Origin: an uncultured Spirochaetales bacterium
Lineage (GTDB): Bacteria; Spirochaetota; Spirochaetia; Sphaerochaetales; Sphaerochaetaceae
Direction: 5' to 3'
DNA length: 64,000 bases
NCBI GenBank assembly: GCA_949282255.1
Contig: CASDPA010000001.1
Location: 62,001-126,000 of the forward strand
The notes under the pieces were generated by a model that saw only the letters and a program-made list of their open reading frames with translations, searched no databases and was not told where the DNA came from. Both the position numbers and the translations under genes were made by a program. Shown piece by piece: positions 14,929 to 46,395 of the stretch (position 1 is the first letter of the stretch; every line of letters starts with the position of its first letter).

Positions 14929-14945
14929 TTGGCACGTACTTTGCA
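14929..14945 (+). promoter_or_regulatory. Sigma-54 promoter of pspA1-pspC1
   Basis: TTGGCACGTACTTTGCA, a full match to the -24/-12 consensus (GG and GC 10 nt apart). Expected start of transcription about 14956, 28 nt before ATG 14984. Confidence 0.9.
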
Positions 14946-14983
14946 ATCATATCAGTAAGGCAACCAGCCTATAGGAGAAAACG

Positions 14984-15664
14984 ATGAACGTATTCAAAAG
15001 AATTGGAGACATAATCTCGTCAAACGTCAACTCGGCACTGGACAAGATGGAAGATCCGGAAAAGATGATAGACCTTTCGATAAGGGAGCTTGAGGATGCG
15101 ATTGCTGAAATGAGATCCACTCTTGCAGAAAAAAGGGTGGAACTCACAAAATGCGGCAACATGGTTAAAGATCTGGAAGAGAGCGTGCAGCGCTGGGAGG
15201 AAAGATCCCGCATGGCGCTTGAAAAGGGCCTTGACGACATGGCCAGGGAGGCCATAAAAGAAAAGCTTGCCGCAAAGGAGCGTCTTACCGGAGCAAAGGA
15301 GGCGGAAAGCACCCTTTCAGAGATGATCAAAAGCGTTGAGGAAAGCCTTGATAAGGCAAATGACAAGCTCGCTTCGCTAAAGGAGACCAGTTTAAGCCTC
15401 AAAGCCAGGGCGAAGCTTGCAAAGGTCCGTCTCAAGGTCGAAAAACAGGCGAAAACTGACGAAAGCGCATCTTATGCACGCAGAATCGAGGAGATGAAGG
15501 CGAAAATCGAGCGTTGGGAGGCCTTGGCCGACATACATCACGACAGCGTGAGAACGGAAGCGGACAAGCCTAGCTTCAACGACCTGGAGAAGGCTGCAGC
15601 AGTCGAAAAGGAACTCGAGGAGCTCAAGAGCAAAATAAAAGACGACAACAAGGAGAACATCTGA
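14984..15664 (+). CDS. pspA: PspA/IM30 (Vipp1) family envelope-stress protein, copy 1
   Basis: 226 aa, nearly all alpha-helical coiled coil, like E. coli PspA (about 222 aa). Starts MNVFKRIGDIISSNVNSALD with an amphipathic first helix and the family 'KMEDPEKMI' motif. PspA is an ESCRT-III-like protein that polymerises on damaged inner membranes and, in enterobacteria, restrains the activator PspF. AGGAG lies 6 nt before ATG. Transcribed from a sigma-54 promoter and overlapping the downstream pspC gene by 1 nt (TGATG). It is one of two pspA paralogues flanking pspF in this window. Confidence 0.93.
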   Translation: MNVFKRIGDIISSNVNSALDKMEDPEKMIDLSIRELEDAIAEMRSTLAEKRVELTKCGNMVKDLEESVQRWEERSRMALEKGLDDMAREAIKEKLAAKERLTGAKEAESTLSEMIKSVEESLDKANDKLASLKETSLSLKARAKLAKVRLKVEKQAKTDESASYARRIEEMKAKIERWEALADIHHDSVRTEADKPSFNDLEKAAAVEKELEELKSKIKDDNKENI

Positions 15665-15879
15665 TGAGGGACTGTTACGATGATTACCCTTATTGCGAAA
15701 GGCCACGATTAAAAAGGAGCCGGTGCGGACTTCTCGCCGGCGTATGCCAGGGCATTTCCAATTGGAGCGGGATATCCGTGGGAATAATCAGGATCGCGGC
15801 AATCGTATCTCTCGTCATCTCGGGCTTTTTCCCAATCGGACTGATATATATTATACTTGCAATAATACTCCCTTCATAA
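15664..15879 (+). CDS. pspC: PspC-domain membrane protein, short form
   Basis: 71 aa. Minimal PspC domain: RSRCGLLAGVCQGISNWSGIS followed by a single membrane helix (about residues 42-68, VIRIAAIV to ILAIILP). PspC proteins sense membrane disturbance and recruit PspA. Coupled to pspA1 by a TGATG junction. Short compared with E. coli PspC (about 119 aa); it lacks the long C-terminal cytoplasmic or periplasmic part, which the second copy at 18542 has. Confidence 0.88.
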   Translation: MRDCYDDYPYCERPRLKRSRCGLLAGVCQGISNWSGISVGIIRIAAIVSLVISGFFPIGLIYIILAIILPS

Positions 15880-15882
15880 AGC

Positions 15883-15905
15883 AGGGCAGCCTTGTGGCTG
15901 CCTTT
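15883..15905 (+). terminator. Terminator of the first psp operon
   Basis: GGCAGCC-TTGT-GGCTGCC stem followed by TTTG; short T tract. Confidence 0.7.
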
Positions 15906-16337
15906 GTCCTGTGGTCCATGATTTTCTCCGTCACAAAGGTATGGACAAAAATGTCCGCCCTTTTCAAAGTGGAAATACATAGAACCTTTTTGATGACGTA
16001 ATTCAAATCATGCTGTCGGAGGACCTTCGCTCCACGATCGGCTTATTGCATAAAAAAGCATCAGAAAAGAACCTGACAGACCTTACACCTGTCCTCATAA
16101 AAGGGACAGGTTTTTACTTAATTCAGGCCGTCGACGTGTTTCGGAAAATATCGGGTATTCATGAAAAGTCGGGCGATGGCGGGAGAAGGAAAAGAAGCAC
16201 GAGAGATTAAAAAACCCTTAAGGACGGGCACATGCCCTTTGGAAATGATATGGCAGAATACGTATCCGGCCCGGAACGCCGGGATCTTGATTTCCTTTCG
16301 TCAAAAGCAAAACATGATTTTTCCGATCGAAGAAAAA
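15906..16337. other. 432-nt gene-poor stretch with orphan hairpins
   Basis: No convincing gene. It holds a small GGACA-N4-TGTCC repeat (near 15943), a GGAG-N8-CTCC hairpin (near 16018) and a strong orphan terminator (16087-16115, listed separately). A GGGCA/TGCCC and a CCCGG/CCGGG repeat (16225-16290) may help end the pspF transcript. An open frame at 16010-16210 has no ribosome site and unconvincing composition. Confidence 0.4.
16087..16115 (+). terminator. Orphan terminator hairpin
   Basis: ACCTGTCC / GGACAGGT perfect 8-bp stem followed by TTTT, about 180 nt after the psp terminator and with no gene immediately upstream. It may end a small RNA beginning around 15990-16010; no clear promoter was found. 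Confidence 0.5.
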
Positions 16338-17345
16338 TCATTTCAACCGGTCCCTGTATTTCCTGTACATCCCGCGGAACTGGTCATAGGTGATCCCGAG
16401 TATCTCGGATGCGGCCTTCTGCGAGCCCCTGCCCATATCAAGTGCACGGGACAAAAACGATATGTCAATGTCCTCGTGGGCCTTCTCCATATCCTTTATC
16501 CCATATTCTGAAAACGAAACCCTTTTTTCGGACAAAGAAGGGCTGTGCTCCTCTTCTTCTGCAAACGGATTTGCAAACGGATCGAAATCTATGTGCGAGA
16601 TGATGCTTCCATCGCTCCTGTATACGGCTCGTTCGACGACGTTCTTCAATTCCCTGACGTTCCCCGGCCACGGATAAGAAAGGAGAAGAGCCTCGACTTC
16701 AGGTGTGAACGACGGAATCGTCTCCATGTTGCATTCATAGGCCATCTTGGAGGCAAAATAGTTTGCAAGCAGCAGTATGTCCCCTTCCCGCTTCCTCAGC
16801 GGAGGCAGGAACAGGACCTCGAAAGAAAGGCGGTCGAGAAGATCCTCCTTGAAACGTCCCTGGATGCAGAGCTTCTTGAGATCTGCGTTCGTAGCGCCCA
16901 CGATCCTCACGTCCGATTCATGGGTCACGGACGACCCGACCCTCTCGTAGGTTCCGTATTCGACGACCCTCAGTATCTTCTCCTGGACCTCGAGAGGGAT
17001 GAGCCCTATCTCATCAAGGAAAAGTGTGCCGCCCTCGGCCTCCTCGAAACGTCCCTTGCGGTTCGAATAGGCTCCGGTGAACGCCCCCTTCTCGTATCCA
17101 AAAAGCTCGCTTTCTATGAGTGACGAAGGAAGGGAGGCGCAGTTGACGGTCACAAGCGGTTTATCCCACCTTTGGGAAAGATAATGGATGCGTCTTGCGC
17201 TTATCTCCTTTCCGGTGCCGCGTTCCCCTATTATGAGTACAGGCCGGTCTATGCGTGCGACCAGGCTGAGCCTGCTGAGGAAATCCAGATATACTTCGCT
17301 TTCCCCTATCCCAGCGTTCTGGGGATCGATGATTCTTTTGGACAT
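16338..17345 (-). CDS. pspF: PspF-type sigma-54 activator (AAA+ enhancer-binding protein)
   Basis: 335 aa. Lacks any N-terminal receiver or sensor domain, like PspF. AAA+ domain from about residue 10 to 240: Walker A GERGTGKE, the sigma-54 contact loop GAFTGA (in YEKGAFTGAYSNRKGRFEEA), Walker B GGTLFLDEIG, and arginine-finger region FKEDLLDRLSFE. The C-terminal Fis-type helix-turn-helix (last ~45 residues, GSQKAASEILGITYDQFRG) binds DNA. Placed between two psp operons, both with sigma-54 promoters, so it is very probably their activator. The start at ATG 17345 has no ribosome site; TGG-TATTAT lies 10 nt upstream. That -10 lies inside an enhancer-like box, which predicts autorepression as described for E. 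coli pspF. Confidence 0.9.
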   Translation of the reverse strand: MSKRIIDPQNAGIGESEVYLDFLSRLSLVARIDRPVLIIGERGTGKEISARRIHYLSQRWDKPLVTVNCASLPSSLIESELFGYEKGAFTGAYSNRKGRFEEAEGGTLFLDEIGLIPLEVQEKILRVVEYGTYERVGSSVTHESDVRIVGATNADLKKLCIQGRFKEDLLDRLSFEVLFLPPLRKREGDILLLANYFASKMAYECNMETIPSFTPEVEALLLSYPWPGNVRELKNVVERAVYRSDGSIISHIDFDPFANPFAEEEEHSPSLSEKRVSFSEYGIKDMEKAHEDIDISFLSRALDMGRGSQKAASEILGITYDQFRGMYRKYRDRLK

Positions 17346-17350
17346 ACTTG

Positions 17351-17382
17351 GGTAAATAATACCACTATTGGCAATATTTACC
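17351..17382. promoter_or_regulatory. Paired GGYA-N5-TRCC-type boxes, candidate PspF enhancer of second psp operon and pspF operator
   Basis: GGTAAATAATACC (17351-17363) and GGCAATATTTACC (17370-17382), centres 19 bp apart, 104 and 85 bp upstream of the -24 GG at 17461. Box 1 covers the pspF -10. Confidence 0.55.
17356..17361 (-). promoter_or_regulatory. pspF -10 element
   Basis: Minus strand TATTAT preceded by TGG (extended -10), 10 nt before ATG 17345; lies within enhancer box 1. Confidence 0.5.
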
Positions 17383-17458
17383 AATAGAAAACATATGCTG
17401 TATCTTGGGCACTCCGCCTATTTTCCTGATTGGAAAGGAATTGCAATATCTGAAAAAC

Positions 17459-17475
17459 TTGGCACGTTTTTTTCA
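17459..17475 (+). promoter_or_regulatory. Sigma-54 promoter of second psp operon
   Basis: TTGGCACGTTTTTTTCA: perfect -24, while the -12 has TC in place of GC. This probably gives a weaker promoter than that at 14929. Confidence 0.7.
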
Positions 17476-17511
17476 TCGTATTATTCAGAGACGAAGGTGA
17501 AGGAGAATACA

Positions 17512-18156
17512 ATGGGTATTTTTTCGAGATTCAAAGACATAGTCAATTCCAACATAAACGCCATCCTGGACAAGGCTGAGGATCCGGAGAAGATGCTCAA
17601 GCTCATGATACAGGAGATGGAGGACACCCTTATCGAGCTAAAGAGCAACTGCGCGGCAAAGCTCGCATACGGAATCAAGCTTGAGAGAAAACTTGAGGAT
17701 AGTCTCAAAACCTTTACAAGATGGGAGAACCGTGCTGTACTTGCCATCGGAAAGGGACGAGAGGATCTTGCCCGCGAGGCTCTTGTAGAAAAGAGAAATG
17801 TTCAGACTGAAATCGATTCTCTCAAAAGCCAGATTGAAGAAAACCACATCACCATAGAAGAGGCCAAGAGGGAGATATCCACGCTGGAAGAAAAGCTCGT
17901 ACAGGCCAAGGGCAAGCTGAAGATCCTCAAGCAGAAGGAAGAAAGGGCAAGAAACGAAAGGATGGCCCAGGATGCGATGAGCAAAGATGTTGCCGGCCAT
18001 TTTGAGCAGATGGAGGAAAAGATCGACAGGATGAACGCTTTCAACGACCTTGAGAAGGGGCGTACCGTGGCCGAGGATAAATTCTCCGAGCTGGAAAAGG
18101 ACGAGGAGATAGAAAAAGAACTCAACGAGCTTAAAAACAGGATGGAAGGCAAATGA
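17512..18156 (+). CDS. pspA: PspA/IM30 family protein, copy 2
   Basis: 214 aa from ATG 17512, which has AAGGAG 6 nt upstream; the frame is open further left, but those residues are not PspA-like. Opens MGIFSRFKDIVNSNINAILD with the amphipathic helix, then KAEDPEKMLKLMIQEMEDTL and long coiled coil to the end. Diverged from copy 1 but clearly paralogous (same first-helix and EDPEKM motifs). First gene of a five-gene chain with ATGA overlaps, driven by a sigma-54 promoter. Two different PspA copies imply division of labour, for example one regulating and one repairing; this is inference. Confidence 0.92.
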   Translation: MGIFSRFKDIVNSNINAILDKAEDPEKMLKLMIQEMEDTLIELKSNCAAKLAYGIKLERKLEDSLKTFTRWENRAVLAIGKGREDLAREALVEKRNVQTEIDSLKSQIEENHITIEEAKREISTLEEKLVQAKGKLKILKQKEERARNERMAQDAMSKDVAGHFEQMEEKIDRMNAFNDLEKGRTVAEDKFSELEKDEEIEKELNELKNRMEGK

Positions 18157-18545
18157 GCGCCGTAATACCTATTCTTGCAATAATATTCCCATTCATAGTG
18201 GTAATCGTCATCGCAGACAACATACACGAGGAAAAGATAAAGAAGATGAAGATAGAGGCCGCACTAAGGGAGGCGGAGATGGAAAAGGGATATGCACCCG
18301 GAACATACTCCAGGAGCTTTTCAAGCAAAGCGGCATACAAGGAATTCGAGCGCCAGGCGAAAAGGGACAGGAAGAACAGGAAAAGGAATCCTGAGGCTTT
18401 CGAAAAAAGTCCCTTCAATGAGAAAGAGGAACGCGAAGCGCTCGAAAAAGGTATAAAAAACCTTCAGGAAAGGATAGACAATATAGAGACCATCATGAAG
18501 GACAAGGCCAGAAGGAATAAAGAAGGCGAAGGAGAGAGGATATGA
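18153..18545 (+). CDS. PspB-like membrane protein (one helix plus coiled coil)
   Basis: 130 aa. N-terminal membrane helix (about residues 2-22, VIPILAIIFPFIVVIVIAD) followed by a highly charged cytoplasmic helix region and a C-terminal coiled coil (EREALEKGIKNLQERIDNIETIM). The C-terminal heptad segment resembles the leucine-zipper end of PspB, but the protein is nearly twice as long as E. coli PspB (74 aa), so the name is only by analogy. Position between pspA2 and pspC2, with 4-nt overlaps on both sides, supports a role as PspC partner in stress sensing. Confidence 0.65.
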   Translation: MSAVIPILAIIFPFIVVIVIADNIHEEKIKKMKIEAALREAEMEKGYAPGTYSRSFSSKAAYKEFERQAKRDRKNRKRNPEAFEKSPFNEKEEREALEKGIKNLQERIDNIETIMKDKARRNKEGEGERI

Positions 18546-18940
18546 CAAGAAGATGGACCAGATCCCCCAGGGGAAAGATATATGGCGTTGTGACCGGGTT
18601 TGCCGAATGGAGGGACCTGCCTGCAGAGCCGACGAGATGGATCGCATTTTTTCTCATCCTGTTCACCTCTGTTTTCCCCGGCCTTATCATCTATGTGCTG
18701 TTGGCGCTTGTCTTGCCGATGCAGAGGCCGGAGGATGTGATAAGCCCGTATCATGAAAGAAGCTGGAGCGAAAGAAGAAACAGTCGGCACGAGGCCGCAT
18801 ACGAGGATGCGAAGTGGGAGGAAAAGAGCACCGAGGATCTCAGGAAAGAATACGAGGATCTGAAAAAGAAAGTCGAAGAAATGGAGAGCGAGATGTTCGA
18901 CAAGGAAAAGGACTGGGATGAAAGATTCAACAGGCAATGA
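18542..18940 (+). CDS. pspC: PspC-domain protein with C-terminal coiled coil
   Basis: 132 aa. PspC domain at the N-terminus (RSPRGKIYGVVTGFAEWRDL, then membrane helix about residues 34-59), followed by a cytoplasmic region and coiled coil (STEDLRKEYEDLKKKVEEMESEM). This is the long form; the copy at 15664 is short. Both neighbours overlap it, by 4 nt upstream and 23 nt downstream. Expected to sense membrane stress and dock PspA2 through the coiled coil (inference). Confidence 0.88.
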   Translation: MTRRWTRSPRGKIYGVVTGFAEWRDLPAEPTRWIAFFLILFTSVFPGLIIYVLLALVLPMQRPEDVISPYHERSWSERRNSRHEAAYEDAKWEEKSTEDLRKEYEDLKKKVEEMESEMFDKEKDWDERFNRQ

Positions 18941-19772
18941 AGACAAAAAGGATATTTTCAATCCTGAAGACGGGAGTTTCTTCCGTTTCAGGCTGTCCAA
19001 CAAAAAACTTGCCATGGGCTGTGCAGCATTCTTACTTATTGTTCTTATCGTCTCAGCCGTGCTCGACATTTATCTCAGGCTCAGCAGCACGGAAGGCTGC
19101 CTCGATGTTACAGGAAAGGATCTGGAGATCTACATTGCAAAAGGGGAGCTCCACATAAATGGGAATGGGAATGCTGAAAAAATTTCCTATGTTCTTAATA
19201 AATCGTCGAAGATAAGCCTGGAGGAGCAGGAAGATAGCCTCACATTGGCTGTGGCAAGCGGCGTGCTGACACTCACCCTGCCCCGCTATGAAATTCCGTC
19301 TGTGACCATAGATGCGGGAAACGCATCCGTGATGCTTTATGACATGGATGTACAGGAACTCAATGTAAAAGCATCATCTTCGGTGGATGCGGACAGAATC
19401 GGCGCAGAAGAAATATCCATCATATCAAATGGCAGCCTCATACTGACCAACAGCACCGCAGAAAAAGCTTTTCTGAAAACCTTCGGCAGCCTGACCACAT
19501 CAGAGAGCTCGTTCTCCACACTACAGATAGAGACCTTGGATAATGATGCATCCATTCTTGGAGGGGAGATAACAATATTCAAAGCCGAGAGCAAAAATGC
19601 CAATGTATATTTTTATCCGGAAAACGGGATTTCAGAAGCCTCTGCAACAGGAAATCTTGCTGCAATCAATTTCGACGGAAACAAAGATACCATGCTGCAA
19701 AGTTACTCGACAGACAATGAAGACGGAGCCGAAGTGACTTTCAAAAGCGTACAAGGGGTGCTCGAAATATGA
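18918..19772 (+). CDS. Membrane-anchored DUF4097/Toastrack-type beta-repeat protein
   Basis: 284 aa. Cytoplasmic N-terminus, one membrane helix (about residues 32-54, MGCAAFLLIVLIVSAVLDIY), then an extracytoplasmic region made of short beta-strand repeats (patterns such as 'LEIYIAKGELHING', 'VTIDAGNASVMLYD', 'ISIISNGSLILTN') as in DUF4097/DUF2807-type proteins. The Toastrack fold of this superfamily is known as a partner of PspC/LiaF in envelope-stress systems. The start at 18918 lies inside the pspC2 gene. The downstream gene encodes a related lipoprotein, so two such proteins would sit on opposite membrane anchors. Confidence 0.7.
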   Translation: MKDSTGNEDKKDIFNPEDGSFFRFRLSNKKLAMGCAAFLLIVLIVSAVLDIYLRLSSTEGCLDVTGKDLEIYIAKGELHINGNGNAEKISYVLNKSSKISLEEQEDSLTLAVASGVLTLTLPRYEIPSVTIDAGNASVMLYDMDVQELNVKASSSVDADRIGAEEISIISNGSLILTNSTAEKAFLKTFGSLTTSESSFSTLQIETLDNDASILGGEITIFKAESKNANVYFYPENGISEASATGNLAAINFDGNKDTMLQSYSTDNEDGAEVTFKSVQGVLEI

Positions 19773-20554
19773 TCAGGGATGACAGGCGTTTCAAAGTATT
19801 GCTGCTGGCAATATGCATGGCATTTTTTCTTTTCGGGTCTGCAAGATGCTCGAATCCTTTGTTTTCAAATAACGAAAATGTCTCAGAAAATTTCAGTGAT
19901 GTAAACAGTATCGAAATATCGGTACAGACGGGAAGCATCACTTTTGAATCAGAAGAAAGAAATGATGTGCTCGTGATGGCAAAGGGTATCGAAACGGCTT
20001 GTATTTCCGGCAATCTGCAGATCAAGGGCAGAAACGGGGATGTGAAACTGATATTGCCTTCAACCATGCTTGAAAAGATTGCAATACAGAGCGCTACGGG
20101 AAACATAAGCATCAGCAAAACTTCTGCAAAAAAGATACGGATCGATACAAATTACGGAGACATAACAATATCGGGCAGCAGGGCAGAAACGATTGAGGCC
20201 TCGAGCTTTTCAGGCGACATCAGCCTTATCGGCAACAGCCTCTCAAGCATAATCATAGAAAATACAAGCGGGCGCACAACAATAGAAGATGGCAGCGCAA
20301 GGGATGTGAAAATAGAAACGGTATCCGGTAATATCGACTTGTCCGTTCCTCAGGCAAGAAATATCTCAATAGACTCGATAAGTGCCGATGCAAAGGTGAA
20401 AGTCAATCAGAAACCCTACTCCTTCAGCCTTGAAACCGCAAGCGGAAAGGCGGAAGTCTTCGGCAATCATACCCTTGCCTCCAATATGGATGATCCCGAG
20501 CTTTTCATCACATTTGAAAGTGTGAGCGGGGATTTGGCTGTAAGTGCATATTGA
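19769..20554 (+). CDS. DUF4097/Toastrack-type putative lipoprotein
   Basis: 261 aa. N-terminal signal with a possible relaxed lipobox (FGSARC, Arg at -1 is unusual; Cys about residue 27). The rest is a regular series of ~20-residue beta-repeats with 'S.SGDI.I', such as SATGNISISK, NYGDITISG, SFSGDISLIG, TVSGNIDLSV and SVSGDLAVSAY at the end, the hallmark of DUF4097. Start overlaps the previous gene by 4 nt (ATGA). Last gene of the second psp operon. Probably periplasmic and membrane-tethered; ligand unknown. Confidence 0.75.
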   Translation: MIRDDRRFKVLLLAICMAFFLFGSARCSNPLFSNNENVSENFSDVNSIEISVQTGSITFESEERNDVLVMAKGIETACISGNLQIKGRNGDVKLILPSTMLEKIAIQSATGNISISKTSAKKIRIDTNYGDITISGSRAETIEASSFSGDISLIGNSLSSIIIENTSGRTTIEDGSARDVKIETVSGNIDLSVPQARNISIDSISADAKVKVNQKPYSFSLETASGKAEVFGNHTLASNMDDPELFITFESVSGDLAVSAY

Positions 20555-42538: not shown

Positions 42539-44458
42539 ATGTCCCAGGACGATAGCGGCAAGTTCGATAATTTTCCTTACTACGAAGGAAAGCTCGGATT
42601 CGAGCTTGCTGAAGAAAAAACAATATTCCGCCTATGGGCTCCGAGTGCATCAAGCGTGCTCATAAGGCTTTACGAAGATGGGCTGTTTCTGCCCTCATAT
42701 ATGGATAGATATCTCGAAAAATACCAGGATGGACATTTTGAGACAGTATTTGAAGAGAATCTGAACGGAAAGTACTACGACTATCTCATAACAACCAATG
42801 GCAGAAGCTATGAAAGCGCCGATCCATATGCAAGAAGCTGTGGCGCAAACGGGCTTAGAAGCATGGTTATCAATCTCAAAAGCACCGATCCTGAAGGTTG
42901 GGAAAATGACAAGGCCCCAAAGAGGCAGAAGGAAGACATAATCTATGAAGTTCATGTGAAAGACTTCACTTTCCAGCGTTTCAGCGGGATCTCTGCAGAG
43001 CACAGGGGAAAATATCTGGGCCTTGCAGAGCGTGGAACCCGCCTTCTGTTCGATAAGCAATACAGGACCGGACTTGATTATATAGCTGAATTAGGTGTGA
43101 CACATGTGCAGCTGATGCCGATATTCGACTTCGGCTCCATAGATGAAATGGGCTCGGACCAGAAATTCAACTGGGGTTACGATCCCCAGAATTACAACGT
43201 GCCCGAGGGATCCTACTCCACGGATCCGGAGCATGGGGAAGTGCGCATCAGAGAGCTCAAGATGATGGTGAAGGCCATGCATGAGGCGGGGCTGCGCGTC
43301 GTAATGGATGTCGTATACAACCATACCTACCATCTCGATTCCTGCCTGTTCAGAACAGAGCCCTGGTATTTTTACAGGCAGAACGCAGACGGAAGCTCCA
43401 GCAACGGCTCCGGATGCGGGAACGATATCGCATCAGAGCGGCCGATGGTGCACCGATACATTTTGGATTCGATAATCTATTGGGCGGAGGAATACCATAT
43501 CGACGGATTCAGATTCGATCTGATGGGATTAATCGACACTGGGCTGATGAACGATATACGCGAGAAGCTCGACCAAAAATATGGGAAGGGTGAAAAGCTG
43601 ATATACGGCGAGCCCTGGGCCGCGGGAGGGACTGCGGTGAAGGCGGGTTATCAGCTTGCAGACAAAAACGCGTTGGCTTTGCTGGATAAGAACATAGGAG
43701 CTTTCTGCGACTCCACACGTGATTTGGTGAAGGGCAGCAATTTCGATGCTTCCTCACTTGGATTTGCAAATGGCGGGACTGTTGATATGAACCTAATAAA
43801 ACACGCCGTACTCGGCTGGAATCCTGGAGATTGGCATTTCAGCACAAAATCCCCCAGCCAAACCATCACATATCTTTCAAGCCATGATGATTGGACGCTT
43901 TGGGACAAGCTTGTGCTGACGATGGATGAAAATGAGGAGTTCCTCAAGCTCAGCCCCCAGGTATTGGAAGCAAACCGACTCGCCGCAGCCATGTACTTTA
44001 CCATGCAAGGTCGACCTTTCATGCTCTCGGGAGAGGAAATGGCAAGGACGAAAGCAGGGGTGAAAAACTCCTACTGCTCCCCTCTTTTCATAAACCGCTT
44101 TGATTGGATAAGGACAAAGGAGGCTCATTCGCTTGTTGAATATTACAAGGGGCTCATACGGTTGAGAAAAAGCATCCCCGCATTGACAGACAAAAGCTCG
44201 GGAGCAAAAAACCGGCTTCTTGAATTCAAGATAATCGGGAAGCATACCGTCAAGATCCGTCTCGACAACAAGGGGGATGAGAAATACAAAGAGATCCAGC
44301 TGATATACACCCAAGAAAAGGAAATGCAGCGCCTGCAGCTTGACGGGAAATGGGATGTCCTTATGGACGGAGAGATTTCTGACAGAAGGGATGCACCCAT
44401 AAAGGTCGAGGGTTATATCAACACACGCGGACCGGAGGCGATCCTGCTTGCCCGCTAA
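42539..44458 (+). CDS. Type I pullulanase (GH13 debranching enzyme)
   Basis: 639 aa. Hydrolyses alpha-1,6 bonds of pullulan or branched alpha-glucans. N-terminal CBM48 region (YEGKLGFELAEEKTIFRLWAPSA), then GH13 catalytic domain with the pullulanase-specific NWGYDP (in KFNWGYDPQNYN) and the four conserved regions: VVMDVVYNHT, GFRFDLMGL (nucleophile Asp), IYGEPW (acid/base Glu) and YLSSHDDWTLWDK. No signal peptide, so it acts on intracellular glycogen or imported maltodextrins. ATG 42539 follows GGGGG. Stop codon overlaps the stop of convergent rhomboid gene by 3 nt. Confidence 0.92.
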   Translation: MSQDDSGKFDNFPYYEGKLGFELAEEKTIFRLWAPSASSVLIRLYEDGLFLPSYMDRYLEKYQDGHFETVFEENLNGKYYDYLITTNGRSYESADPYARSCGANGLRSMVINLKSTDPEGWENDKAPKRQKEDIIYEVHVKDFTFQRFSGISAEHRGKYLGLAERGTRLLFDKQYRTGLDYIAELGVTHVQLMPIFDFGSIDEMGSDQKFNWGYDPQNYNVPEGSYSTDPEHGEVRIRELKMMVKAMHEAGLRVVMDVVYNHTYHLDSCLFRTEPWYFYRQNADGSSSNGSGCGNDIASERPMVHRYILDSIIYWAEEYHIDGFRFDLMGLIDTGLMNDIREKLDQKYGKGEKLIYGEPWAAGGTAVKAGYQLADKNALALLDKNIGAFCDSTRDLVKGSNFDASSLGFANGGTVDMNLIKHAVLGWNPGDWHFSTKSPSQTITYLSSHDDWTLWDKLVLTMDENEEFLKLSPQVLEANRLAAAMYFTMQGRPFMLSGEEMARTKAGVKNSYCSPLFINRFDWIRTKEAHSLVEYYKGLIRLRKSIPALTDKSSGAKNRLLEFKIIGKHTVKIRLDNKGDEKYKEIQLIYTQEKEMQRLQLDGKWDVLMDGEISDRRDAPIKVEGYINTRGPEAILLAR

Positions 44459-45078
44459 CGTATCCTTCTGAACGGATTTATGTTCATCCTCACCACGACA
44501 TATAAAAGGCCCACCACAAGCCCGAAAAGATGGGTTATGTGGGCTATGCCGTCATAGGAGAACTGCAGGAAGAACTCGATTAGGAAATATACGATGACAA
44601 GCACATAAGCCTTCACAGGAAGAAGGCCCATCACATATACGACAGAATTAGGGAAGAACACCGCAAAAAGAAACATTACCGCATATACGGCTCCCGATGC
44701 CCCCATAAGGAAATAAAAATACTGACCGGTGAAATAATAGTAGAAGAATGTCAGTACAGAGGACAGAATTCCTGTGACAAAATAATAAAGCAGGAATTCC
44801 TTGCTCCCAATATACTTTTCAACTATTGTGCCGAATATGAAAAGCCCCAGCATATTTGAAAAAAGATGCATCAGGCCGCCATGGACAAACATATATGTGA
44901 CAAACTGGTAATAGCTGTGGCTTGAAAGTATCATGAATGGACTCATCGCCATTCGGAATCCAAGACTTGGATAAACATAATAAGATAAAAAGAAGACAAA
45001 AATGTTGATGGCTATCAACAACAATGTGACATTATGAAACGAATAGCTGAATTTCCTGTTTATTATGGAGTCCCTCAT
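44455..45078 (-). CDS. Rhomboid family intramembrane serine protease
   Basis: 207 aa, six predicted membrane helices. Catalytic Ser in GASGAVYAVMF (helix 4) and His in GIAHITHLFGLVVG (helix 6); HLFSNMLGL in helix 2 gives the conserved His/Asn oxyanion-hole residues. All key residues are present. Cleaves membrane-anchored substrates within the bilayer; substrate unknown. ATG 45078 is preferred to an upstream TTG. No ribosome site, and TATTAC lies 10 nt upstream, so the leader may be very short. The sRNA locus lies just upstream, on the opposite strand. Confidence 0.9.
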   Translation of the reverse strand: MRDSIINRKFSYSFHNVTLLLIAINIFVFFLSYYVYPSLGFRMAMSPFMILSSHSYYQFVTYMFVHGGLMHLFSNMLGLFIFGTIVEKYIGSKEFLLYYFVTGILSSVLTFFYYYFTGQYFYFLMGASGAVYAVMFLFAVFFPNSVVYVMGLLPVKAYVLVIVYFLIEFFLQFSYDGIAHITHLFGLVVGLLYVVVRMNINPFRRIR

Positions 45079-45133
45079 AAAAAACAAGGTAATACGTAAA
45101 AAGAGCAAGGGTCAAGTTCGAAAAAAAATTACA

Positions 45134-45150
45134 GTGTGAAAAAATTTCAC
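45134..45150. promoter_or_regulatory. Upstream activator palindrome of sRNA 1
   Basis: TGTGAAAAAATTTCACA, perfect 7-bp arms. Its centre lies 66 bp before the -24 GG of the sRNA 1 promoter, the placing of a sigma-54 activator site. A matching palindrome stands before sRNA 2. Confidence 0.7.
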
Positions 45151-45205
45151 ATAGCAAAAGGCAGAAAAAAGAGTTGAAAACCATAAAAATAGGCTTTTTC
45201 CATAG

Positions 45206-45222
45206 TTGGCACGCTATTTGCT
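45206..45222 (+). promoter_or_regulatory. Sigma-54 promoter of sRNA 1
   Basis: TTGGCACGCTATTTGCT, full consensus, GG and GC 10 nt apart; +1 near 45233. Confidence 0.9.
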
Positions 45223-45232
45223 TATTTTCAAG

Positions 45233-45305
45233 TACAGAGCAAACAGTTTTTTTCAACCTCCTTTTTTTAGCATGTGTGGCACCTCAGCAGGGTGCCCGTT
45301 TTTTT
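45233..45305 (+). ncRNA. Putative sigma-54-dependent small RNA 1 (about 73 nt)
   Basis: Begins ACAGAGCAAACAG, then a U tract, CAACCUCCUUUUUUU (anti-Shine-Dalgarno CCUCC), and ends in the terminator GGCACC-N7-GGTGCC (45278-45296) plus seven T. No open reading frame with a ribosome site. Shares its 5' block with sRNA 2, 430 nt downstream. Expected to base-pair with ribosome-binding sites of target mRNAs (inference). Confidence 0.7.
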
Positions 45306-45562
45306 GAAAAGGTGAAATTGGTTCATTTCATAAGCATGAGGTTTTATTACAGGGAAAATACATCAAGGGCATTACATGCAGGCAGGATCAGGATGTTTTG
45401 GAAACAATAAAGGAATATCTTATGGCAAAAAAATAAGATTATGCTTCTTTTTTAGCCATCAAATAGCCTTGTTTTATCGTAATTCCTTCAAAACAGAATT
45501 CATGGCAAAAGACTGAACCAAATATCCAATGCTATATTTTTTACAGTGCAAATTTTTCCATG
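45306..45562. other. Spacer between the two sRNA units
   Basis: About 257 nt with no recognised gene. A 46-codon open frame (45376-45516) is possible but has only a weak AAGGG site. Runs resembling CTTTTTTAGC recur here (near 45450) and in both sRNA units, which hints at old duplications of the unit. Confidence 0.3.
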
Positions 45563-45579
45563 TGTGCAATTATTTCACA
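45563..45579. promoter_or_regulatory. Upstream activator palindrome of sRNA 2
   Basis: TGTGCAATTATTTCACA, same TGTGNAA-N3-TTTCACA layout as at 45134 (one arm mismatch); centre 67 bp before the -24 GG of sRNA 2, against 66 bp for sRNA 1. Confidence 0.65.
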
Positions 45580-45635
45580 TACAAATTTATCATGAATAAT
45601 GGCAATAAGCATGTATTTAACACTTTTTAGCATAC

Positions 45636-45652
45636 TTGGTACGGCTTTTGCA
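45636..45652 (+). promoter_or_regulatory. Sigma-54 promoter of sRNA 2
   Basis: TTGGTACGGCTTTTGCA; GG and GC 10 nt apart, T for C at one -24 position. +1 near 45663. Confidence 0.85.
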
Positions 45653-45662
45653 TACTCATTTG

Positions 45663-45770
45663 TAACAGAGCAACAGTTTTTTCACCTCCTTTGATCGAGT
45701 GAAAAAAAGTATCCAGAAGCATCGTCGGCCCTCTCTCCCACCCCATTTATGCCGGCGATGCTTTCTTTTT
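45663..45770 (+). ncRNA. Putative sigma-54-dependent small RNA 2 (about 108 nt)
   Basis: Begins AACAGAGCAACAG, nearly identical to sRNA 1. Hairpin TTTTTTCAC / GTGAAAAAA (9 bp) holds CUCCUUUGAUCGA in its loop, so the anti-Shine-Dalgarno is displayed. The terminator is AGCATCGTCGGC / GCCGGCGATGCT (45718-45762) with a 21-nt C-rich loop containing CUCUCUCCCACCCC, then TTCTTTTT. Two C-rich loops suggest two targeting surfaces. Confidence 0.75.
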
Positions 45771-45780
45771 GCCGGTTTTC

Positions 45781-45789
45781 TGCTATTAT
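45781..45789 (+). promoter_or_regulatory. Extended -10 of rlmE (leaderless)
   Basis: TGC-TATTAT, then 6 nt and ATG 45796; +1 coincides with the start codon. No ribosome site. Confidence 0.55.
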
Positions 45790-45795
45790 TTTTCC

Positions 45796-46395
45796 ATGGC
45801 AAATTCAAGAAGGGACAAGGCTGATTCATATACGCAAAGGGCGCATAAGGAAGGATATCCTGCACGCAGCGTCTATAAGCTGGAAGAAATCAATTCTTCG
45901 CATAGGATAATAAAACCTGGAGACAGCGTATTGGATGTAGGGGCGGCGCCTGGAAGCTGGACGCTTTATACACACCGCGAGCTGATAAAAGGAAAAGGGA
46001 GTATTGTAGCTGTCGATCTCAATCCCCTGAACCTCGATCCGGTGCCACCGACAGTGACGGCATTCGTTGGAGATGCCTTTTCAAGGGAAATAAGAAAAAG
46101 ACTGACGGACCTGGGGCCGTATGATGCGATAATAAGCGATGCCGCGCCCATGACCACGGGAAACAGGACCGTCGACACATCAAGGAGCGAAGCCCTCGCT
46201 GAAAATGTCGTACTGCTGGCAGAAGAGCAGCTTAAGGCCGGCGGAAATCTTGTGATAAAAATCTTCCAGGGCGGCGGGCAGGAAGAGATATTGAAAAAAA
46301 TGCGGACCCTTTTCAAAAAAGCAAAGGCCTTCAAACCGAAGGCCAGCAGAGATGACAGTTTTGAAATCTTTTTGATCGGACTGGAAAAGAAATGA
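45796..46395 (+). CDS. rlmE: 23S rRNA (uridine2552-2'-O)-methyltransferase, FtsJ/RlmE family
   Basis: 199 aa. SAM-dependent 2'-O-methylation of the A-loop uridine of 23S rRNA; late step in large-subunit assembly and linked to heat stress. Rossmann methyltransferase with RSVYKLEEI (first catalytic Lys), VLDVGAAPGSWTLY (SAM site), AIISDAAPMTTGNR (catalytic Asp) and NLVIKIFQGGG (second Lys); the final Glu (SFEIFLIG) completes the K-D-K-E tetrad. ATG 45796 is chosen because the -10 at 45784 leaves it leaderless and the family start matches. The stop abuts the stop of convergent mscS with no gap. Confidence 0.92.
   Translation: MANSRRDKADSYTQRAHKEGYPARSVYKLEEINSSHRIIKPGDSVLDVGAAPGSWTLYTHRELIKGKGSIVAVDLNPLNLDPVPPTVTAFVGDAFSREIRKRLTDLGPYDAIISDAAPMTTGNRTVDTSRSEALAENVVLLAEEQLKAGGNLVIKIFQGGGQEEILKKMRTLFKKAKAFKPKASRDDSFEIFLIGLEKK

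Follow-up and report, generated by a model that had tools for sequence, protein, structure and literature searches.

Small RNAs (sRNAs) that occur as siblings, each made from a sigma-54 promoter under the control of enhancer-binding response regulators, are known from Vibrio (Qrr) and from enterobacteria (GlmY/GlmZ). Other sRNAs carry a stretch complementary to the Shine-Dalgarno (SD) sequence of mRNAs. The LhrC1-5 RNAs of Listeria have this anti-SD action and are under the two-component system LisRK (PMC4132741). The streptococcal csRNAs are several similar sRNAs with an unpaired SD-complementary stretch, each with its own response-regulator promoter and terminator (PMC3091779). In the alpha-r14/NfeR1 RNAs of rhizobia, which are linked to NtrBC, the hairpin stems vary and the unpaired anti-SD motif CCUCCUCCC is ultraconserved (PMC10746234). 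Here, we analysed a pair of candidate sRNA genes upstream of rlmE in a 64-kb stretch of DNA (the window, whose numbering is used throughout) from the 2.35-Mb genome (G000) of an uncultured, gut-type member of the Sphaerochaetaceae. The explanation that best accounts for the whole locus, to which we give a probability of about 0.7, is that these genes encode sibling sRNAs controlled by sigma-54 and an enhancer, which would repress translation at ribosome-binding sites.

Comparison with described systems

To our knowledge, Qrr and GlmY/GlmZ contain no anti-SD CCUCC block of the kind found here. They resemble the pair in the sigma-54 control of sibling sRNAs and differ from it in sequences, targets and partner proteins. 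The comparison with these RNAs made in the preliminary description of the locus is therefore apt for control; for the mode of action, LhrC, the csRNAs and alpha-r14 are closer models, judged by the conserved seeds. LhrC shares the anti-SD design and two-component control, the latter being putative in our case, but no sequence relation was established (no Rfam match) and the twin RNAs are two different paralogues. We know of no sigma-54 or enhancer control of LhrC. The csRNAs are likewise siblings with their own promoters and terminators and an unpaired anti-SD stretch, but their promoters are activated by CiaR instead of sigma-54, they are also complementary to AUG, and they belong to another phylum. 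The variable stems and fixed unpaired anti-SD motif of alpha-r14 recur here, but alpha-r14 is made of three hairpins and is found in Alphaproteobacteria; we are not aware that it is made from a sigma-54 promoter.

Comparing the window with 4227 Rfam families gave no match at the gathering level and only Spy779816 (E 0.78) at a permissive threshold; no covariance model placed the RNAs in Qrr, GlmY/GlmZ or another family of Rfam. The literature examined contained neither a description of these RNAs nor the combination of sigma-54/enhancer control of sibling RNAs with anti-SD seeds. Sigma-54 sibling sRNAs and anti-SD sRNAs are already known kinds; the family, the host group and the combination appear to be new. 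If expressed as predicted, the pair would represent a deeply conserved sRNA family outside Rfam, in a phylum from which few trans-acting sRNAs have been described. It offers a concrete candidate regulon (kinase, regulator, enhancer and RNAs) with cultured carriers, Sphaerochaeta halotolerans and Bullifex porci.

Two tandem sigma-54 units precede rlmE

The host was assigned to the Sphaerochaetaceae: its rlmE is 98% identical to that of an 'uncultured Spirochaetales' metagenome-assembled genome (MAG) and ~84-86% identical to those of Ornithospirochaeta and Bullifex. Two tandem units were found on the plus strand at 45135-45770, between a rhomboid gene (44455-45108, minus strand) and rlmE (45796-46395). 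Each unit is made of a 17-bp palindromic enhancer TGTGAAAnnTTTTCACA, a near-perfect sigma-54 promoter, a short transcript and an intrinsic terminator (Table 1). The promoters, TGGCACG-CTAT-TTGCT and TGGTACG-GCTT-TTGCA, lie 430 bp apart. Counted from the -12 C, the predicted starts are 45233 and 45663, both immediately 5' of (A)ACAGAGCAA, and the predicted transcripts are ~72 nt (RNA1, type A) and ~107 nt (RNA2, type B) long. The RNA1 terminator (GGCACCT-loop-GGGTGCC-T7) ends at ~45305; that of RNA2, with a 12-bp stem, a C-rich loop and a T run, ends at ~45770, ~26 nt 5' of the rlmE ATG.

The preliminary description had proposed two such units, with transcripts of 73 and 108 nt from these starts. 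A promoter, a palindrome, the same block and a terminator were indeed present in each, and the proposed starts and sizes agree with the sigma-54 start distance and with the terminators. The nearly identical 5' block it had noticed in both transcripts is real. The enhancer palindromes and the anti-SD meaning of CCUCCUUU go beyond that description. As in other sigma-54-dependent sRNA genes, a -24/-12 promoter is properly spaced from a short, terminated, non-coding transcript, and an upstream enhancer is present together with enhancer-binding proteins in the genome. On sequence grounds, the pair is supported as two sister (paralogous) sRNA genes under sigma-54 promoters.

Table 1 Features of the two sRNA units in the window
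Feature	Position	Strand	Remarks
Enhancer (upstream activating sequence) palindrome 1, TGTGAAAAAATTTCACA	45135..45151	.	72 bp start-to-promoter 1; 1 of 4 exact places in the genome
Sigma-54 promoter 1, TGGCACGCTATTTGCT	45207..45222	+	Pattern match; conserved in relatives, with the AGAGCAA block 26-32 nt downstream
sRNA 1 (type A), ~72 nt	45234..45305	+	Predicted start 45233/45234; model R2 match; alignment A2, 39 sequences
Anti-SD core CCUCC, sRNA 1	45257..45261	+	Unpaired 5' region; invariant in A2
sRNA 1 terminator, GGCACCT-CAGCA-GGGTGCC and T run	45278..45305	+	Six stem pairs with two-sided changes
Enhancer palindrome 2, TGTGCAATTATTTCACA	45563..45579	.	74 bp start-to-promoter 2; 1 of 4 exact places in the genome
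Sigma-54 promoter 2, TGGTACGGCTTTTGCA	45637..45652	+	Sigma-54 pattern match
sRNA 2 (type B), ~107 nt	45664..45770	+	Predicted start 45663/45664; model R1 match; fold z-score
sRNA 2 hairpin 1, UUUUUUCAC (CUCCUUUGAUCGA) GUGAAAAAA	45677..45707	+	Loop presents anti-SD; fold and relatives
Anti-SD core CCUCC, sRNA 2	45685..45689	+	Alignment and unpaired-probability analysis
sRNA 2 terminator, 12-bp stem, loop CCTCTCTCCCACCCC, T run	45718..45770	+	Covariation; loop near-invariant

Across the 2.35-Mb genome, the strict pattern TGGYAYN5TTGCW was found at 17 places and its reversed control at 6, so that a single match is not significant. Reading of their surroundings left four promoter-like matches: the two described here, one at pspA (14930) and one at an hsp20-like gene. 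The palindrome pattern TGTGNANNNNNTNCACA occurs exactly at only 4 sites genome-wide, and two of them are at this locus, one ahead of each promoter. In 62 related loci, the best palindrome scored 10/10 in 37 loci and 9/10 in a further 9 (46/62 at >=9/10), the TGTG..CACA arms being nearly fixed. The palindrome sits between both units in several of these loci, as would be expected if an enhancer-binding protein acts from a distance. The sigma-54 promoter of the hsp20-like gene (L120 ~1500; G000:C5:62688) has a different palindrome upstream, TGTCATTTTGACA.

The pair is conserved in the family and beyond

Many of the relatives compared are MAGs, in which a missing unit may in some cases reflect an incomplete assembly. 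By DNA search, 27 of 60 relatives had matches, every one of them in the host's own genus. Among 110 loci (80 rlmE loci from named genomes plus the DNA-search matches), 91 contained the AGAGCAA..CCTCC core, usually twice, and a sigma-54 promoter was found most often 26-32 nt upstream of it. Carriers include S. halotolerans, Pleomorphochaeta, B. porci and Ornithospirochaeta, with the pair present in S. halotolerans and B. porci. Most congeners and members throughout the family have the units, as a rule as an ordered pair upstream of rlmE, and types A and B can both be recognised among relatives.

Models of both units, in line with a search suggested in the preliminary description, were run on related genomes and matched family-wide. 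Model R1 (type B) matched 32 genomes in a set of 40, made up of 35 congeners and 5 from the wider family, and 32 of 248 genomes of the class; outside the family, it matched four genomes of family f17 and one of family f4 (G038), the latter with two tandem units. Diverged copies exist in at least two sister families; they keep the promoter, the CCTCC block and the C-rich terminator loop, with most other letters changed; enhancer-like palindromes were seen in the f17 copies and were not clearly recognisable in f4. Model R2 (type A) gave the same family-wide picture. The window itself matched R2 at 45234-45308 (4.7e-9) and R1 at 45665-45769 (1.2e-12), which is not independent evidence because its own sequences are included in both models. 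A check for absence of the units from close relatives found them there and leaves the proposal of twin sRNAs under individual sigma-54 promoters standing; it is supported by anatomy, by conservation in the family and beyond, and by covariation.

Since rlmE directly follows the pair in most genomes, including those of f17 and G038, unit 2 could be a sigma-54 leader or attenuator of rlmE and unit 1 a decayed copy. We consider this very improbable. A 5' leader would always be contiguous with its gene, but units with sigma-54 promoter and terminator lie elsewhere in L167 (G179, near a rhomboid gene) and L169 (G087), and others that keep promoter and terminator in L271 (G115, beside an alaS-like gene) and L273 (G060). 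These units rule out a mere rlmE leader. Moreover, the strong terminator is maintained by compensatory change, unit 1, with an enhancer of its own, equals unit 2 in conservation, and rlmE appears on reading to have its own extended -10-like sequence, TGCTATTAT, just 5' of its ATG. With TGCTATTAT before the ATG and no SD sequence (45780-45798), rlmE looks leaderless, as it does in L003.

Several loci depart from the usual arrangement. In some congeners (L032-L034), the units are missing here and rlmE directly adjoins the rhomboid gene. L162 (G259, 1259-1870) has not two but three tandem units. In L016, L021, L023, L062, L063 and L064, unit B has no sigma-54 promoter and is preceded by another conserved block, GAACTnTATAG..ATCTTGTA, which suggests that the promoter was swapped; unit A of L063 still has its sigma-54 promoter. 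In L265 (G036) and L268 (G159), from families f2 and f11, a CCTCCTTT block and a terminator lie next to a pgi-like gene, and no sigma-54 promoter is present; these candidate RNAs are possibly distant relatives of the twin sRNAs. Weak R2 matches in family f24 look like chance, and a search of a plasmid collection gave no match.

Stems vary and C-rich seeds are fixed

In the type B terminator stem, 95.1% of cells were paired, as compared to 28-52% when the partner was slid, and two-sided changes were found in 10 of 10 pairs. The type A terminator had two-sided changes in six stem pairs. The stem of RNA2 hairpin 1 (UUUUUUCAC/GUGAAAAAA in the window) is rebuilt with other letters in relatives, as GUUAACAAAC/GUGUGUUAAU, UUUUUCAUGC/GUAUGAAAAA or UUUUCAGACCU/AGUUUUGAAAA, with pairing kept, and its loop begins with CUCCUU in most of them. 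Compared with shuffled sequences, the fold of RNA2 was stable (z -4.84); RNA1, with a z-score of -0.05, was not, which fits an RNA whose only closed part is the terminator.

The fixed unpaired cores are CCUCC(UU) near the 5' end of both RNAs and CUCUCCCACCCC in the RNA2 terminator loop. In type A, the mean probability of CCUCC being unpaired was 0.85, versus 0.64 with shuffled flanks, and the UCUCCC terminator loop of RNA2 had a probability of 1.0.

As the preliminary description had stated, no open reading frame appears to be translated: none is conserved, and relatives show non-triplet indels and paired stem changes. Short open reading frames do overlap the region, but we consider it hardly credible that the transcripts are remnants or messages for short peptides, given these indels, the compensatory nature of the paired changes, the lack of a conserved start with an SD sequence and the deep conservation.

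An NtrC-type regulator is the favoured activator

Three full enhancer-binding proteins are encoded in the genome: a PspF-like protein (window 16338-17384) and two NtrC-type proteins, the response regulator N1 (contig C12, L111:1072-2436) and the regulator N2 (contig C6), each adjoined by a kinase gene (a histidine kinase in the case of N1). Both N1 and N2 are nearly universal in the genus. Two genomes devoid of the RNAs, G208 and G231, have N2, and N1 only as a receiver-less N1-like protein. In G231, the N1-like gene lies ~400 bp from the same palindrome and a sigma-54 promoter. For these two reasons N1 is favoured, and we consider the odds somewhat better than even that it is the activator of the sRNA promoters. 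That the same RNAs are activated by N2 or by the PspF-like protein is appreciably less probable: both proteins are present in the genome, but N2 also occurs in the RNA-less G208 and G231, and the examined pspA promoters have no palindrome of this kind. No enhancer-like palindromes were found near the N1 and N2 genes of G000.

The palindrome and sigma-54 promoter of G231 (L199, 2890-3023) precede a gene for a sigma-70-family sigma factor, an arrangement reminiscent of the Borrelia RpoN-RpoS cascade. The window also contains a Psp-type envelope-stress locus (14930-20554), with a sigma-54 promoter before pspA (14984-15664), the gene of the PspF-like activator (minus strand), a second pspA (17368-18156), a PspC-domain gene and DUF4097-like genes. 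Control by PspF was examined as a candidate and rejected, as the palindrome was missing from those pspA sigma-54 promoters that were inspected.

The RNAs may block ribosome-binding sites

Both CCUCC(UU) and the core of the RNA2 terminator loop are complementary to SD sequences, so that the RNAs present the conserved unpaired C-rich motif typical of anti-SD sRNAs. From this we infer that they pair with ribosome-binding sites and so keep translation of mRNAs from being initiated. In the proposed mechanism, a kinase would sense a signal. A Fis-type enhancer-binding protein at the upstream TGTG-N9-CACA palindromes, most probably the NtrC-type response regulator N1, would activate sigma-54 RNA polymerase, and two paralogous trans-acting RNAs would be made, each ending at its own terminator. 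CCUCC(UU) would be displayed unpaired in RNA1 and in a hairpin loop in RNA2, which would also display its CUCUCUCCCACCCC terminator loop. These C-rich sites would pair with the SD regions of mRNAs and translation would be blocked.

Several observations speak against parts of this explanation. A weak pattern search of 29 genomes found no conserved, specific extended target. Covariation was not seen in five more 5' pairs predicted for type A, and the CCUCC of type B is open to a moderate degree only when the RNA is unbound (probability of being unpaired 0.68, versus 0.71 with shuffled flanks). N1 is also present in genomes without a detected RNA (G148, G190, G013 and G030); given this and the near-universality of N1 and N2, the assignment of the activator rests on few genomes.

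Without a conserved extended target, the effect may be specific or broad. CACCUCCUUU is the usual 3' end of bacterial 16S rRNA; the 16S stretch holding this tail is missing from the present MAG. The RNAs could thus be decoys that mimic the 16S tail (CACCUCCUUU) and occupy many strong SD sites or an SD-binding factor instead of chosen mRNAs. An envelope or nutrient signal, relayed by the NtrC-type kinase and regulator, would then produce RNAs with CACCUCCUUU or a close form that compete with ribosomes genome-wide, in effect a sigma-54-controlled brake on translation initiation in spirochaetes. Identity with the general 16S tail, the anti-SD core being the only part constant over families and the missing extended target fit this idea, but conservation past the core (AGAGCAAACAGU6-7CAA) suggests more specific pairing or protein binding, and two distinct paralogues are retained side by side. 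We regard decoys as unlikely and prefer repression of mRNAs at their ribosome-binding sites.

In the 29 genomes, matches to the 14-base extended complement AAAGGAGGTTGAAA were mostly antisense of the RNA genes themselves, and those in G020 and G021 had no fitting start codon. One plausible mRNA site was found, in a sulfatase-like gene of the host's own genome (G000:C9:59103). In L176 (~1675, G021), unit B has no CCUCC block and keeps the promoter and the CUCCCACCC terminator loop, which suggests that the terminator loop may work on its own.
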